A stretch of DNA of 47,424 bases from Nitrospinota bacterium (lineage in GTDB: Bacteria > JADFOP01), in the NCBI GenBank assembly GCA_022562795.1, contig JADFOP010000014.1:1-47424 (forward strand), read 5' to 3'. A model generated the notes under the pieces. It saw only the letters and a list, made by a program, of their open reading frames with translations, was not told where the DNA came from and ran no database searches. The position numbers were made by a program, and so were the translations under genes. How positions within the stretch are numbered: the stretch's first letter is position 1; each line of letters starts with the position of its first letter. Shown in pieces: positions 5,490-11,760 of this stretch.

Positions 5490-5936
5490 ATGACCTTGGA
5501 GCGGAAGGCCCGCGAGCTCAACCGCTACATAAACGTTATGGTGGAGCGCTTCATCTACGCTGAGGGCGCCATGGGCCCTTCGGCCGAGCTCTCCCGGCAA
5601 GAGCTCATCGCCCTAAGGCTGTTGGGCTTCCACGGCCGCCGGACGATGACCAAGCTCGCCGAGGAAGCGGGGGTGGCGCCGGCGACGATGACCGGCATAG
5701 TGGAAAAGTTGGTGACCCGGGGCCTTCTCGTACGCCAGAGGCGCGCCGACGACCGCCGCGTGGTGGAGGTCACCTTAACCCCCCAAGGCGAGGTGGCGTT
5801 CAAAGATAGCGTAGAGCTCCACATGCGGATGGCCCGCGAACTGCTGCTGGCCCTCGACGAGGGGGAGCAGGAGGCCATGCTTATGACTCTTAGGAAGATC
5901 ACCGGCGTCGGGCACTTGGACGAGTCAACGTCGTGA
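5490..5936 (+). CDS. MarR-family transcriptional regulator
   Basis: 148-aa winged-helix regulator. The helix-turn-helix lies at about residues 50-80 (MTKLAEEAGVAPATMTGIVEKL) and is followed by the wing (RRADDRRVVEVTLT), the standard MarR DNA-binding layout with dimerisation helices at both ends. It is first in a three-gene operon with a membrane-fusion protein and an RND pump. Its stop overlaps the next start in GTGA, so the genes are co-transcribed. By family precedent it represses the operon until a small ligand binds; the ligand is unknown. GGGAGG sits about 8 nt before the ATG. Confidence 0.88.
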   Translation: MTLERKARELNRYINVMVERFIYAEGAMGPSAELSRQELIALRLLGFHGRRTMTKLAEEAGVAPATMTGIVEKLVTRGLLVRQRRADDRRVVEVTLTPQGEVAFKDSVELHMRMARELLLALDEGEQEAMLMTLRKITGVGHLDESTS

Positions 5937-7216
5937 GCGCATTGGCCGAAAAGGGGGCCATACGAGGCCCCGCTCGGGTAGTGGCCGCGGGAGCCGTCGT
6001 GGCCATGGTGGCAGCCACGGTGGCTATCGCCCTTTGGATTATCTCGGTGAAGAATACCCCTCCTGAGGCTCCTTCGACCCCGATGAAACGAATTCCGGTG
6101 GAGACGGTCGTCGTCCGGCATGAGACGTTCACCCACCAGATGCATGCCCTCGGGACCGTCACGCCTATACGCGAGGCCTCTGTCGCCTCCCAGGTGGTAG
6201 GGCCCATCGTGGCTATCCCGGAAGGAGTCGAGCTGGGAGCCCCGATAGAGAAAGGTCAGTTGCTGGCCCAGATCAAGCCGACGAGCTATGAGATTGCCCA
6301 CCAAGAGGCCGAAGCCCTGCTTGCCCAGCGGCGGGCCGCCTACCAGGAGCAGCGCCGCGAAAGCGAGAAGCGCACCGTGCTCTTCAAGATCGCAGAGGAG
6401 AACGTCGGGATCGTCAAGGCTGAAGCCAATCGGATCGAAAATCTATTCAAGCAGGGAGTGGTATCCCACTCGGAGAACGACGCCGCGCGGGGGCGGCTGA
6501 CCCAAGCTCGCATCGAGTATGAACGCCTCCGTAGCGAATACCGATCGGCCGATGCCGCCTTAAGCCGCGTGGCCGCAGAGATCGCCCAGGCCGAGGCCAG
6601 ACTCGCCGGGGCGAAGGAGGATCTCGCAAACACCCGTGTTACGGCCCCATTCGCCGGCCTCATCGCCAAGAAGGTCGCCGAGGTAGGCGACCATGTTGCC
6701 GTGGGCCAAACCATCGTTCGGCTCGTCGACATCGCACGGGTCAAGGTCCTCATTAACGTCCCCACCGAGGATATCCACGCCCTGCGGCCCGGCTTGCCCG
6801 CCGAGGTGACGGTAGCACCATTTCCCGATCGACCCCTGCTAGGGATGGTCGCTCATGTGGGCTTCGAGGGCGAGGTCACAAACCGCACCTTTCCCGTCGA
6901 GGTTATCGTGGACAACCCGCCCGGCCTGCCTCTGCGAGCGGGAATGTTCGCTAAGGTCCGCGTGGCGGTCCGCACATACGAGGAGATCATCCTAGTTGAC
7001 CGCCGGCTCATCCAACGCGGGCCAGACGGGCCAATACTCTTCGTCGCCGACAAGGAGGAGCAGCTTGCCCGTGCCCGGCCTATCCGTTTGGGCCGCCTCT
7101 TCGGTGAGCGCTACCAGGTCCTAAGGGGCCTTGCTCCCGGCGACGCTCTCATCACCGAGGGGGTGGAGCTGCTGAGCGACGGGGCCCCCATCACCTTGCC
7201 GGCCGTCACCAACTAA
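5933..7216 (+). CDS. RND efflux membrane-fusion (HlyD-family) adaptor
   Basis: 427-aa periplasmic adaptor of a tripartite RND exporter. An N-terminal membrane anchor (about residues 15-40, Ala/Val-rich) is followed by a split lipoyl domain (about 75-110 and 225-260), an alpha-helical hairpin (about 120-215, heptad-like) and beta-barrel and membrane-proximal domains to the C-terminus. The GTG start overlaps the marR stop by 4 nt. It bridges the inner-membrane pump encoded next and an outer-membrane channel; no tolC-like channel gene is nearby, so one must be supplied from elsewhere. Confidence 0.88.
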   Translation: MSALAEKGAIRGPARVVAAGAVVAMVAATVAIALWIISVKNTPPEAPSTPMKRIPVETVVVRHETFTHQMHALGTVTPIREASVASQVVGPIVAIPEGVELGAPIEKGQLLAQIKPTSYEIAHQEAEALLAQRRAAYQEQRRESEKRTVLFKIAEENVGIVKAEANRIENLFKQGVVSHSENDAARGRLTQARIEYERLRSEYRSADAALSRVAAEIAQAEARLAGAKEDLANTRVTAPFAGLIAKKVAEVGDHVAVGQTIVRLVDIARVKVLINVPTEDIHALRPGLPAEVTVAPFPDRPLLGMVAHVGFEGEVTNRTFPVEVIVDNPPGLPLRAGMFAKVRVAVRTYEEIILVDRRLIQRGPDGPILFVADKEEQLARARPIRLGRLFGERYQVLRGLAPGDALITEGVELLSDGAPITLPAVTN

Positions 7217-7220
7217 GGTC

Positions 7221-10200
7221 ATGTTCACTACTCGCATGTCGGTCAACAACCCCGTCTTCGTTAACCTCGTGGTCGTCGTAATCCTTGCCCTCGGCATTGG
7301 GCTCGCTGTGACAACCATGAACCGGGAGATTTTTCCTGAATTCTCCCTGGATATGATTAGCGTTACCACCACCTTCTCCAATGCCTCTCCCGAGGAGATG
7401 GAGAAGCTCATCACCATCAAGCTCGAAGACGAGATCGACGACGTCGACGGAATCGACACCATCGAGAGCGAATCCCGCGAGGGCATAAGCCTCATAACCT
7501 TAAAGCTCCAAAGCGGAGTGGAGGACGTCAGCCGGGTCATCAACGACGTCCAGACCGCAATCGACAACATCCGAAACGAGCTTCCCCGGGAGGCCGAGAA
7601 CCCCATCGTCCAAGAGCTCAAGAGCCGATTCCCGGTCATCGTCCTCTCCATCTACGGTAAGGTCAACCCCTTCACCCTCAAGAACATCGCCGACGAGGTT
7701 GAGGAAGAGATTAAGCGCATCCCTGGCGTAAGCCGGGTCCGCGTCGTTGGAGTTGGGGACCGGGAGGTTTGGGTAGAGGTGGACCCGGCGGCGCTGGAGC
7801 GCTACGGGCTTGCCATTGGCGACATAGAGCGAGCCATAGAGGCGAAAAACCTAAACCTCCCAGGCGGAACGCTCAAGACTGCCCGTGGCGAGTATCTCGT
7901 TAGGACCGTAGGCGAGGTGACTCGGGCAGAGGAGCTGGAGCAGGTGGTGTTGAGAGCCACGCAGGAAGGGAATATCTTGACCGTGGGCCAGGTAGCCACC
8001 GTTCGGGAGACGTTTGAAGAGCCCACCACCCTAGGCCGCTTCAATGGCCGGCCGGCCATCAACCTCCAGGTGAGCAAAGAGAAGAAAGGCGATACCATCG
8101 CCATCGCCAACGCCGTCCGCCAGCTGGCCCAAGGCTACGAACGAAGGCTCCCTCCGGGGGTCCACCTTGGGGTCTACAACGACTTCTCCATCTACATCCG
8201 AAACCGCCTCAACACCCTCAAGCAGAGCGGATACATCGGGCTGATATTCGTACTCCTCGTGCTGCGGCTCTTCTTGGCGACCCGTGTCGCCATCCTGACG
8301 GCCCTAGGCATCCCGGTGGCATTTTGTGGGGCGCTGGTGATGATGTACCTCTACGGCATTTCCATCAACATGCTCTCGGCCTTCAGCCTCATCATCGTGC
8401 TCGGCATGGTTGTTGACGATGCGATTGTCGTTACAGAGAACATTTACCGCCACATGGAGGAGGGCGAAGAGCCCGAGAAGGCGGCGGTCGTTGGGACCAA
8501 CCAGGTCTTTATGCCTGTGGTCGCCTCGACCCTGACCACCATCGCTGCCTTCATCCCCATGCTAATGGTGCCTGGCACCATGGGGAAGTTTATCGCCGTC
8601 ATCCCGCTTGTAGTCTCATTTGCGCTACTTGCCTCACTCGTGGAGGCCCTCATTGTCCTTCCGTCCCACATGGCGGAGTTCGTACGGCTGAAGCCTTCGG
8701 GCAACCCCGCTAAAAGTCCGTCCGACCACTGGTTCCAGAGCGTGGTGACCGTCTACGGTCGCGTGCTGGAGCGCGTCCTTAGGTGGCGGTACGTCTTCAT
8801 CACAGGGGTGCTTTGCTTCTCAATTCTGCTCGTATTGTTCGCCAGATACCGCATTCCCTTCACCCTCTTCACCGCGTTTGAGTCCGACCAATTTTTCATC
8901 AACATGGAGGCGCCCGTTACCTATAAGCTGGAGGACACGAGCAGGGTCGCCCGGGCCGTGGAGACCATCGTCCAGCAGCTACCTCCGGAGGAGCTCTCGA
9001 CCATCGTGACGAATGTAGGGATGATCTACCTCGACGCCAACAAGGTAAAGACGGGCAGCCACCTCGCCCAGATCATCGTCGAGCTCAAGAAGATACCGCC
9101 CCGACGACGCAACTCCGACGAGGTCATCAATGCCCTCCGAGACAAGGTGGCCATGGTGCCGGGCATCAAGAAGGTCCAATTCCTCTCGCCCCAGGCCGGC
9201 CCCGGGGGGCCAGCCATAGAGATCAACGTCGAGGGCGAGGAGTTCGCCGTCCTAGGCGCCTTAGCCGGGAAGGTAGAAGATTATCTAGCTACCATACCGG
9301 GGGTGCGAGATATCCGTAACACGTTCGAGCTGGGAAAGCCCGAGCTAAAAATTTACGTCAAGCCCGAGGCCAGGGCCCTGGGGCTTACGGTCCAGGCGAT
9401 TGCGCGCCAGGTGCGCGACCGGTTTCGTGGGGCGGAGTCGAGCAAGATTCAGCTCTCCAGGGAAGATGTTCAAATTCTCGTCAAGTACCCAGAGGCGTCT
9501 CGCCGGAGCCGGCTCGACGTGGAGCGGATCAAGCTCGATGCGCCCGGGGGCCAGAAGGTCGCCTTCTCCGAAGTGGCCTACATAGTCGAGGAGAGAGGCT
9601 ACACGCAGATTTCCCGGATCGACAAGAGGCGAGCCATCACAGTGTTGGCCGACGTGGATAAAACTCAGGGCAACGCCCTGGAAATCTCCCGCTTTGTAAC
9701 GGCGCGGTTCGCCGATCTGCAAGACCGCTACCCAGGCTACCGGCTCCGTCTCAAGGGCGAGCAGAAGGACTTCGAGGAGAGTGTGGTCTCCCTCGTTAAG
9801 GCCTTCATTGTAGCCGTGCTGCTCATCTATTTCATTCTAGGAAGCGCCTTCCGCTCTTTCATCCAGCCTCTCATCATTATGGCCGCCATCCCCTTCGCTG
9901 TTGACGGCGTCATCGTTGGCCACATCGCGATGGGGATGAACCTGACGTTCCTCTCCCTTATCGGGACGGTAGCCCTGGCCGGGATTGTCGTTAACGATAG
10001 CCTCGTCCTTGTGGATTTTATCAACAACCTCCGCCGCCGGGGTCTCGAGCTGACCGAAGCCATTGTGGAGGGCGGAAAGCTTCGCATCCGGGCCATTTGC
10101 CTGACCTCCCTTACAACCATCGCGGGCCTCTCGCCGCTGGCCTTCTTCGCCTCGGGCCAGGCCCGCTTCCTCATGCCCATGGCGCTGTCCATTGTCTGGG

Positions 10201-10334
10201 GTCTGGCCTTCTCCACCGTTTTGATACTCCTCGTCATCCCGTGCTTCTATGCCGCCGTGGACGACCTGAAGCGGGCCTCGCGCCGACTTGTAGGACTTAA
10301 CGCACGCCGTAGGGCCACCGTTACTCAAGGGTGA
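7221..10334 (+). CDS. RND-family efflux pump permease
   Basis: 1037-aa inner-membrane proton-driven exporter of the AcrB/MdtC-like superfamily. The expected pattern is present: TM1 at about 11-30, a large periplasmic porter loop (about 35-335), TM2-TM6, then a second half repeating the layout with a final TM cluster (about 870-1020). TM4 carries the paired acids Asp399-Asp400 in GMVVDDAIVVTENI, the proton-relay pair of active pumps. It starts 4 nt after the adaptor stop. The substrate cannot be inferred: with a MarR regulator a toxic organic compound is likely, but lipid export is possible. Complete length for the family. Confidence 0.9.
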   Translation: MFTTRMSVNNPVFVNLVVVVILALGIGLAVTTMNREIFPEFSLDMISVTTTFSNASPEEMEKLITIKLEDEIDDVDGIDTIESESREGISLITLKLQSGVEDVSRVINDVQTAIDNIRNELPREAENPIVQELKSRFPVIVLSIYGKVNPFTLKNIADEVEEEIKRIPGVSRVRVVGVGDREVWVEVDPAALERYGLAIGDIERAIEAKNLNLPGGTLKTARGEYLVRTVGEVTRAEELEQVVLRATQEGNILTVGQVATVRETFEEPTTLGRFNGRPAINLQVSKEKKGDTIAIANAVRQLAQGYERRLPPGVHLGVYNDFSIYIRNRLNTLKQSGYIGLIFVLLVLRLFLATRVAILTALGIPVAFCGALVMMYLYGISINMLSAFSLIIVLGMVVDDAIVVTENIYRHMEEGEEPEKAAVVGTNQVFMPVVASTLTTIAAFIPMLMVPGTMGKFIAVIPLVVSFALLASLVEALIVLPSHMAEFVRLKPSGNPAKSPSDHWFQSVVTVYGRVLERVLRWRYVFITGVLCFSILLVLFARYRIPFTLFTAFESDQFFINMEAPVTYKLEDTSRVARAVETIVQQLPPEELSTIVTNVGMIYLDANKVKTGSHLAQIIVELKKIPPRRRNSDEVINALRDKVAMVPGIKKVQFLSPQAGPGGPAIEINVEGEEFAVLGALAGKVEDYLATIPGVRDIRNTFELGKPELKIYVKPEARALGLTVQAIARQVRDRFRGAESSKIQLSREDVQILVKYPEASRRSRLDVERIKLDAPGGQKVAFSEVAYIVEERGYTQISRIDKRRAITVLADVDKTQGNALEISRFVTARFADLQDRYPGYRLRLKGEQKDFEESVVSLVKAFIVAVLLIYFILGSAFRSFIQPLIIMAAIPFAVDGVIVGHIAMGMNLTFLSLIGTVALAGIVVNDSLVLVDFINNLRRRGLELTEAIVEGGKLRIRAICLTSLTTIAGLSPLAFFASGQARFLMPMALSIVWGLAFSTVLILLVIPCFYAAVDDLKRASRRLVGLNARRRATVTQG

Positions 10335-10410: not shown

Positions 10411-10800
10411 ATGACCGTTCTCAATACACTTGCCATCGTGCTGGGGGTTCTGGCGGTTGCCAAGAGCCTTACTGCGGCGATTTGGCCCAAGGGCTACCGC
10501 GACTTTACTAAGAAGATGCTCGAGAGCGATGTGATACTTCGCGTATTGGCCGTCGTCCCCATCCTAATTGGTGGCATCATCGTCGTGGCCCTCCTCAAGG
10601 GTCGAACGTGGTTGGAGGTTGTTCTCGTCGCCATGGCATTCGTCTACCTCCCGCTTGGGGCGATGTTGATCTGGGACCCAGACCCATACCGGCGGTTGGC
10701 CACCAAGCTCCTGCACTCCGGTGACCTCACCTTTCGGGCTTTGTGCGGCATCGGCATCCTCATCGGCATCCTCCTCTTTTTGCTCGGCATCTTCGGGTAG
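10411..10800 (+). CDS. Membrane protein with two tandem DUF2065-like units
   Basis: 129-aa protein with about four hydrophobic segments. The two halves look alike: IWPKGYRDFTKKML...RVLAVVPILIG in the first and IWDPDPYRRLATKLL...RALCGIGILIG in the second. Each half resembles the ~60-aa DUF2065/YjeT inner-membrane family (hydrophobic helix, P-x-x-[FWY]-[RK] turn, amphipathic stretch, R-x-x-G-rich helix). I infer an internal duplication; no biochemical function is known for the family. It lies 76 bp after the RND gene and may be read through from it. Confidence 0.65.
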   Translation: MTVLNTLAIVLGVLAVAKSLTAAIWPKGYRDFTKKMLESDVILRVLAVVPILIGGIIVVALLKGRTWLEVVLVAMAFVYLPLGAMLIWDPDPYRRLATKLLHSGDLTFRALCGIGILIGILLFLLGIFG

Positions 10801-10865: not shown

Positions 10866-10894
10866 TTGTCAAACCCCCTTTCTGGGAGTATCTT
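10866..10894 (+). promoter_or_regulatory. Promoter of the small selenoprotein gene
   Basis: TTGTCA (5 of 6), 17-bp spacer, TATCTT (4 of 6). Transcription would begin near 10901, giving a ~40-nt leader with the Shine-Dalgarno GAGGAG before the ATG at 10944. With the strong terminator at 11156 this defines a self-contained ~290-nt transcript. Confidence 0.5.
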
Positions 10895-10943
10895 AGTAAA
10901 AGAAAAGGTGATTCGAGACACCGTTCGAGAGAGGAGAACTTCC

Positions 10944-11123
10944 ATGTCCGGTTGGCTAGCGCTTGGATTATTGGCGGTCTTCGTCGCCCTCTTATACAAA
11001 AAGGGGGTGTTGGGCTGACGCCCCATCGGCTCGCAGGTCTGCGGGCTTAAGTCGAAGGAGAATGGAGAAGAAGCCGCCGTCCCGGAGGGGACGGAGAAAG
11101 ACCCCGTGGAAGTCTCCCGCTAG
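10944..11123 (+). CDS. Small single-pass membrane selenoprotein (UGA = Sec25), novel family
   Basis: 60 codons including one in-frame TGA (11016-11018) and a TAG stop; 59 residues. Residues 2-18 form one hydrophobic helix (GWLALGLLAVFVALLY), then Lys-Lys, then VLG-Sec25, Cys33 seven residues on, and a charged Glu/Lys-rich tail of ~25 residues. GAGGAG lies 8 nt before the ATG. The UGA is followed by a hairpin that fits the bacterial SECIS: 8-bp stem (11028-11035 with 11040-11047), loop GGTC, loop starting 18 nt after the UGA. Reading past the TGA stays open for 34 codons with coding-like composition. Lys-Lys after the helix suggests a cytoplasmic Sec-bearing tail (inference). I do not recognise the family. 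Alternatively it is a 24-aa peptide ending at TGA, but the hairpin argues strongly against that. Confidence 0.8.
11028..11047 (+). promoter_or_regulatory. bSECIS element of the small selenoprotein
   Basis: 5' arm GGCTCGCA, loop GGTC, 3' arm TGCGGGCT. All eight positions pair, two of them as G-U wobbles. The loop begins 18 nt after the UGA. As I recall it, the E. coli fdhF element reads GGUUGCAGGUCUGCACC with its loop at +19; the shared GCAGGUCUGC core and the CCCATCGG just upstream make the two look very alike. SelB would bind loop G and U. Confidence 0.8.
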
Positions 11124-11155
11124 AGATAAGGCGGGAGGCTGAAATCTAACCTCCA

Positions 11156-11188
11156 CCCCCCTTGCGCCTTGGCGCTTGGGGGGTTTTT
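11156..11188 (+). terminator. Strong rho-independent terminator
   Basis: CCCCCC-TT-GCGCC/GGCGC-TT-GGGGGG hairpin with a TT/TT internal mismatch, followed directly by TTTTTATTAT. The U-tract lies only on the plus side, so it ends the selenoprotein transcript rather than the convergent minus-strand operon. Confidence 0.85.
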
Positions 11189-11196
11189 ATTATCAG

Positions 11197-11760
11197 TTAG
11201 AAGCCGAGCTGGCGAAGCAGGGTCTGGTAGAATGGGTCCCTAAGATAGAGTTTTTCGAGTTGGAGCCCGGCCACACAGGCCTCGAAGCGGTCGGAGAGCT
11301 CGCGAAACAGTGGGGCGTAGGGTTTCAAAGGGTCTATCCGGGCGAGGAGGGCGTAGGAGGCCTTGCCCCGCTCTATGTAGTAAATGGGCGATGCGGGCCG
11401 CCCGGCCCGCTCCAAGTATTCGGGGAAAAGGCCAGTCATGAAGAGCGCGTAGTCTCCCAGGTGCTTGTATGCGCGCCTATGTCCCATCTCTCCAGCGGAT
11501 TCGGCAGCCTCCACCATCTCGAAGAGATATTCGAGGCGATGGCCTTCGGCGTCGGTGAGCTTGAAGAGCCGCTCGATGTGGACGAATTCCACCAGCACCC
11601 CGGCCACGTAATGTGCTAGGTCTTCGCCCCCGACTCCCACCGAATGAAAGCAGCCCACCGTGAGGCGCCTCAGGAGACTAACAAGCGGATGGTCAGGGGG
11701 AATGGGGCGGGCTGGAGAGGGGTCGAACCAGAAGCTCCCCATTGCATCGGGGGTGAGCAG
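11197..11760 (-). CDS. Uncharacterised helical protein downstream of hflX (apparent CTG start)
   Basis: 181 aa from the ATG at 11742, or 187 aa from a CTG at 11760. I do not recognise the family. It is mostly alpha-helical without TM segments or a signal peptide; FWFDP lies near the N-terminus and several His/Glu pairs lie in the middle. It follows hflX by 29-47 nt, so it is probably co-transcribed. Start choice: the ATG has no ribosome site, whereas AAGGAGGT ends exactly 8 nt before the in-frame CTG (LLTPDA-MGSFWF). No ATG, GTG or TTG is near that spacing in frame. Translation therefore probably begins at CTG. Confidence 0.7.
   Translation of the reverse strand: MLTPDAMGSFWFDPSPARPIPPDHPLVSLLRRLTVGCFHSVGVGGEDLAHYVAGVLVEFVHIERLFKLTDAEGHRLEYLFEMVEAAESAGEMGHRRAYKHLGDYALFMTGLFPEYLERAGRPASPIYYIERGKASYALLARIDPLKPYAPLFRELSDRFEACVAGLQLEKLYLRDPFYQTLLRQLGF

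Follow-up and report, generated by a model that had tools for sequence, protein, structure and literature searches.

A short reading frame with one in-frame UGA

At positions 10944-11123 of a contig from a Nitrospinota bacterium (the window, 47,424 nucleotides), a short reading frame is crossed by a single TGA at codon 25, and the question is whether this triplet ends a peptide or is read as selenocysteine (Sec). We hold with high confidence that the frame is a separate small selenoprotein gene whose UGA25 is recoded via an fdhF-type hairpin, Sec insertion itself being deduced from sequence. With the TGA read through, the 180 bases encode MSGWLALGLLAVFVALLYKKGVLG-U-RPIGSQVCGLKSKENGEEAAVPEGTEKDPVEVSR. 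A ribosome-binding site, one predicted transmembrane helix, the putative Sec25 and Cys33, all foreseen in the original prediction, were recovered from the AGGAG motif, the hydropathy profile and the translation (Table 1).

Table 1 Features at the locus and the evidence for each (window coordinates)
Feature	Position	Strand	Evidence
Promoter-like pair TTGTCA-17-TATCTT	10866-10894	+	Same hexamers 5' of ortholog
129-aa membrane protein, conserved 5' neighbour	10411-10800	+	55% identical, same place in sister genome
Shine-Dalgarno AGGAG, 7 nt from ATG	10932-10936	+	Ortholog has AGGAGG
Predicted selenoprotein ORF, 60 codons (59 aa, Sec25, Cys33), stop TAG 11121-11123	10944-11123	+	Frame translation, ortholog and paralogs, downstream dN/dS about 0.27
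Predicted single transmembrane helix, codons 3-19, then KK	10950-11000	+	Hydropathy 2.51 over 15 residues; low-confidence model
In-frame TGA, predicted Sec25 (codon 25)	11016-11018	+	TGA kept in sister-genome ortholog
Putative SECIS hairpin, 8-bp stem, GGTC loop (11036-11039)	11028-11047	+	Fold, fdhF comparison, bSECIS limits; sister genome 7 bp, -12.1 kcal/mol
Intrinsic terminator	11155-11190	+	Fold; conserved in sister genome

A promoter-like pair and a strong terminator were also found where a promoter and a terminator had been proposed. The promoter-like pair lies about 50 bases 5' of the start, with 0.1 expected in the scan. For the terminator, which a strict scan missed, the folding energy is -30.9 kcal/mol (z -2.4); both are kept at the ortholog in a sister genome. 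Given this promoter-like pair and terminator, the gene appears to be a transcription unit of its own. An AlphaFold model of the product, with a mean pLDDT of 58, has a helix at residues 3-19 followed by a tail without secondary structure, at low confidence.

TGA is a usual stop in the source DNA: of 22 long ORFs that were retained, 10 terminate with it, and general TGA recoding was ruled out because long genes terminate at this triplet. This usage, together with the lone helix typical of bacterial small membrane proteins, is what might be expected of a one-helix microprotein of 24-26 aa ending at the UGA, with an untranslated tail and a hairpin that serves regulation or mRNA stability. The evidence from the hairpin, the homologs and the Sec machinery given below makes such a microprotein very improbable. 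The only in-frame ATG, GTG or TTG codon 3' of the TGA is a single GTG close to the frame end, so translation re-start does not explain the tail either.

Upstream of the 129-aa membrane protein gene lies an RND efflux operon (5933-10334), of which the sister genome retains the last 60 codons (L033 7866-8045), adjoining a Clp ATPase gene. Since the sister genome matches only these last 60 codons, the operon was rejected as a functional partner. The downstream neighbours, on the other strand, are hflX and, ahead of it on the terminator side, a 181-aa ORF (11197-11742) that matched no family and was not found in the sister contig.

A candidate SECIS hairpin of the fdhF type

The hairpin reads GGCTCGCA-GGTC-TGCGGGCT as DNA and GGCUCGCA-GGUC-UGCGGGCU as RNA. 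It begins 9 nt past the UGA, and the distance from the UGA to the loop is 17 nt; the 8-bp stem and GGTC loop are as originally described, where the spacing was given as +18. Published limits for bacterial SECIS (bSECIS) elements are a spacing of 16-37 and an energy of -7.5 kcal/mol or lower (PMC13188914, a review), and the window element falls within the published limits with a loop of 4 nt, a stem of 8 bp, a spacing of 17 and an energy of -12.0 kcal/mol.

Among the 1241 TGA triplets of the window, the one at 11016-11018 alone is followed at an allowed spacing by a stem of at least 6 bp with a GGTC loop. Across the 2.15 Mb of the source genome there are two matches to the pattern TGA-N9..23-GCAGGTCTGC. 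The specificity of the hairpin, a GGTC cap at SECIS spacing, is beyond chance. Stems of at least 8 bp as such are not rare, following 38 of the 1241 triplets, and against shuffled sequences the stability of the hairpin is unremarkable (z -0.5 to -0.7), so that stability alone is no evidence. When a longer stretch around the hairpin was folded, an alternative structure was slightly better, and when the locus was scanned against Rfam, all matches were below threshold and none was to a SECIS family. The second TGA with GCAGGTCTGC in the source genome is at G000:C53:7773-7806.

The likeness to E. coli fdhF proposed at first was borne out on the E. coli genome, where the fdhF element reads TGACACGGCCCATCGGTTGCAGGTCTGCACC (NC_000913.3). 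The two elements have in common CCCATCGG and the identical hairpin tip GCAGGTCTGC, and both carry the GGTC loop, which in the window is 1 nucleotide nearer the UGA. They differ in that the window stem is longer (8 bp) and unbulged, with -12.0 vs -5.7 kcal/mol for fdhF (23-nt tip), and in that the window protein is unrelated to formate dehydrogenase H. The presence of an fdhF tip at SECIS spacing speaks against a microprotein that ends at the UGA.

Conservation in a sister genome

The only same-genus genome compared was “Nitrospinae bacterium AH_259_B05_G02_I21” (JALLOF01; the sister genome). It holds an ortholog (E 1e-9), MTGFEALGIGAVLAAVILIYRKRGSV-U-GLFGSQVCEQKPTEKGQEPAVPEGAERHPVEASHDR, with exactly one internal TGA at the matching place, so the UGA lies inside a longer conserved coding frame. 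Gene order is common to both genomes, with the 129-aa membrane protein upstream and HflX and a TPR protein downstream. A block of 16 nt, GGCTCGCAGGTCTGCG, is identical in the window and the ortholog, and the sister hairpin has 7 bp, one stem pair having changed from U-G to U-A with pairing kept and the outermost pair being lost. That homologs might all end at the TGA, a possible refutation, was not the case: in the ortholog both the TGA and the hairpin are kept, and 33 codons beyond the TGA align, while two paralogs are free of stops.

The window and the ortholog agree at 19 of the 33 residues that follow the TGA, as against 8 of 24 before it, in the helix part, which evolves faster than the tail. 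The post-TGA codons have a dN of 0.23 and a dS of 0.85 (dN/dS about 0.27), and codon positions 1/2/3 differ 7/6/14 times (p 0.036), or 5/3/11 times (p 0.024) if only codons past the hairpin are counted. Amino-acid identity alone is a weak measure, since shuffling of the aligned columns past the hairpin reached the observed identity in 482 of 5000 trials. Taken with the dN/dS and the codon-position skew, the identity in the tail makes it look like a sequence under purifying selection as protein. A tail more conserved than the helix, at this dN/dS, is not what an untranslated tail behind a microprotein would be expected to give.

Paralogs that use cysteine

Two paralogs in the sister genome, P0003 and P0004 (MTEALWIGLALCTIALLYKKGCGCAGGPVGSKSCEIKPKEKGEER and MIEALWIGLAVGIIALLYKKGCGCAGGSSASQACELKPGEESR...), have no stop and carry CGC...C motifs. 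They resemble the window protein in having one helix, YKKG, a Cys after (G/A)Sxx and a short tail, and differ from it in that CGC replaces the Sec region, the tail is shorter or divergent, and recoding is absent. That the reading frames of the paralogs run uninterrupted across this region again disfavours a peptide ending at the UGA.

In a gap-minimal DNA alignment, the TGA stands opposite a glycine codon, GGA, which adjoins the CGC of the paralogs, and not opposite a Cys codon. Sec would accordingly replace a Cys-rich region, not one particular Cys, and the correspondence is regional, not columnwise. As regards homologs with Cys or Sec at position 25, there is an ortholog with the TGA at the matching place and there are Cys-rich paralogs, in which no Cys aligns column for column with Sec. 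One paralog retains CTCGCAGGCCTGCGAG, nearly the SECIS tip, as expected if the Sec and Cys forms have a common ancestor.

In this alignment a single substitution turns GGA into TGA, and we considered whether the window holds an ordinary Cys/Gly-type gene with a nonsense mutation or a sequencing error. The same TGA, accompanied by the hairpin, in two independently sequenced genomes, whose proteins are about 50% identical, leaves almost nothing in favour of this reading, for which both genomes would have to carry the same error.

Selenocysteine machinery in the source genome and its relatives

The source genome encodes tRNA-Sec (selC; 77.6 bits, anticodon TCA) and a selD whose product starts MTDETKIKLTALSHGGGUACKL and so contains Sec, being itself read through a TGA. 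Downstream of this TGA is a hairpin tip, GCAGGTCCTGC, similar to the SECIS tip, and the selD frame is open, with its Sec codon, until it is cut by the contig end (L040 1-693, G000:C27). Both tRNA-Sec and Sec-containing SelD count against the microprotein. The search of the source genome for selA, selB, selC and selD was therefore successful for selC and selD only. No selA was found in the source assembly (97.1% complete) with two models, and no selB above the cut-off, the matches inspected being other frames, which we take to be EF-Tu-sized frames, IF-2 and LepA.

In the sister genome, selA and selB lie beside scpA; selAB, together with a Sec-containing SelD, is likewise encoded by another genome of the class. 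The scpA of the source genome has other neighbours, with no selAB there. In addition, a gene resembling formate dehydrogenase (L047, G002:C43) is crossed by an in-frame TGA (RI-U-HSATV) and probably encodes another selenoprotein of the class.

The missing selA and selB would suit a microprotein, and they would also suit ongoing loss of the Sec trait in this lineage, the source species having genuinely lost both genes and the window gene being a fresh relic. Their absence at 97.1% completeness and an scpA locus without selAB, unlike that of the sister species, point in the latter direction. On the other side stand a tRNA-Sec at 77.6 bits, a selD that retains its Sec codon and stays open as far as its contig runs, and an ORF, hairpin, promoter and terminator that are all intact, and we regard a relic as improbable. 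The cut in selD makes missing sequence plausible, and the simplest reading is that selAB falls within an assembly gap of the source genome; true loss is possible, and the intact selC, selD and window gene argue against it.

Family status and distribution

No NCBIfam or Pfam family matched the window protein up to E 10, and the ortholog and paralogs gave no match there apart from a C-terminal anchor model below threshold. The catalogued families and subfamilies of prokaryotic selenoproteins number about 119, and most of the characterized ones have a thioredoxin-like fold (PMC13188914). A comparison with the 119 families of this 2026 catalogue, made on motifs and names and not on sequences, led us to recognise no match (PMC13188914), in agreement with the earlier remark that no described family of this layout was known. 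The short catalogued selenoproteins (KCU-star, UXX-star, CC/Se motif) are likewise small, with Sec and often Cys, whereas the window motif is U-x7-C after a membrane helix.

The window protein also resembles short Cys-rich proteins of the one-helix type, such as the FeoB-associated Cys-rich membrane protein, in which an N-terminal helix is followed by lysines and a Cys-rich tail. For this type, no Pfam profile matched the window protein, the ortholog or the paralogs. The scan for neighbouring feo genes covered part of the genes nearby, and the neighbours identified encode HflX and an unnamed membrane protein.

A public genome scan gave no match with the 59-mer alone and, with the alignment, the sister genome only. 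Among 386 mostly distant genomes there was no further convincing homolog, a weak match (E 0.008) in a long frame not being accepted, and no homolog was found in viral contigs and phages. Three genomes of the phylum, the 386 overall and the public scan together gave no member outside the genus, and the Sec form is present in two species only of those searched. Judged by these sequence comparisons, the gene very probably represents a genuine, narrowly distributed new family among bacterial selenoproteins.

Proposed mechanism and function

In the proposed mechanism, the ribosome would reach the UGA at codon 25, SelB carrying Sec-tRNA would bind downstream, at a spacing of 17 nt, to the fdhF-type hairpin, and Sec would be inserted to give the 59-residue protein. 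The helix (residues 3-19) would then be anchored in the inner membrane with the N-terminus out and the C-terminus in, the lysines after the helix suggesting a tail that faces the cytoplasm. Sec25 would lie near the membrane surface, 8 residues from Cys33, and the two might form a selenol/thiol pair that reduces membrane-proximal substrates (disulfides, peroxides) or binds soft metals. We give a redox role roughly an even chance and consider metal handling rather unlikely; the paralog branch, which has a sigma factor and a thioredoxin-fold gene for neighbours, tips the balance towards redox.

We think it reasonably likely that these proteins form a new family of minimal membrane selenoproteins, built of a helix and a short cytoplasmic Sec/Cys tail that would bring a selenol to the surface of the membrane, and that a sister branch with Cys only is seemingly linked to a stress locus of the ECF-sigma/thioredoxin-fold kind. 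At 59 residues and a single helix, such a selenoprotein would be very small in architecture, and its gene would escape any gene caller that ends frames at UGA, which suggests that short recoded genes are still hidden in under-sampled lineages. The small size of the protein should also make its SECIS use and membrane selenol chemistry easy to test in E. coli.

As to the paralog loci, an ECF sigma factor/zf-HC2 pair in the sister genome has a paralog gene on either side (L032 5100-7900, G001:C199), the two paralogs being near-duplicates that lie on opposite strands. One of these paralogs precedes the thioredoxin-fold gene, a DUF255 gene, and both share the sequence GTGGAAAGCTCAAGAAGGGAGGAAC immediately 5' of the start codon.
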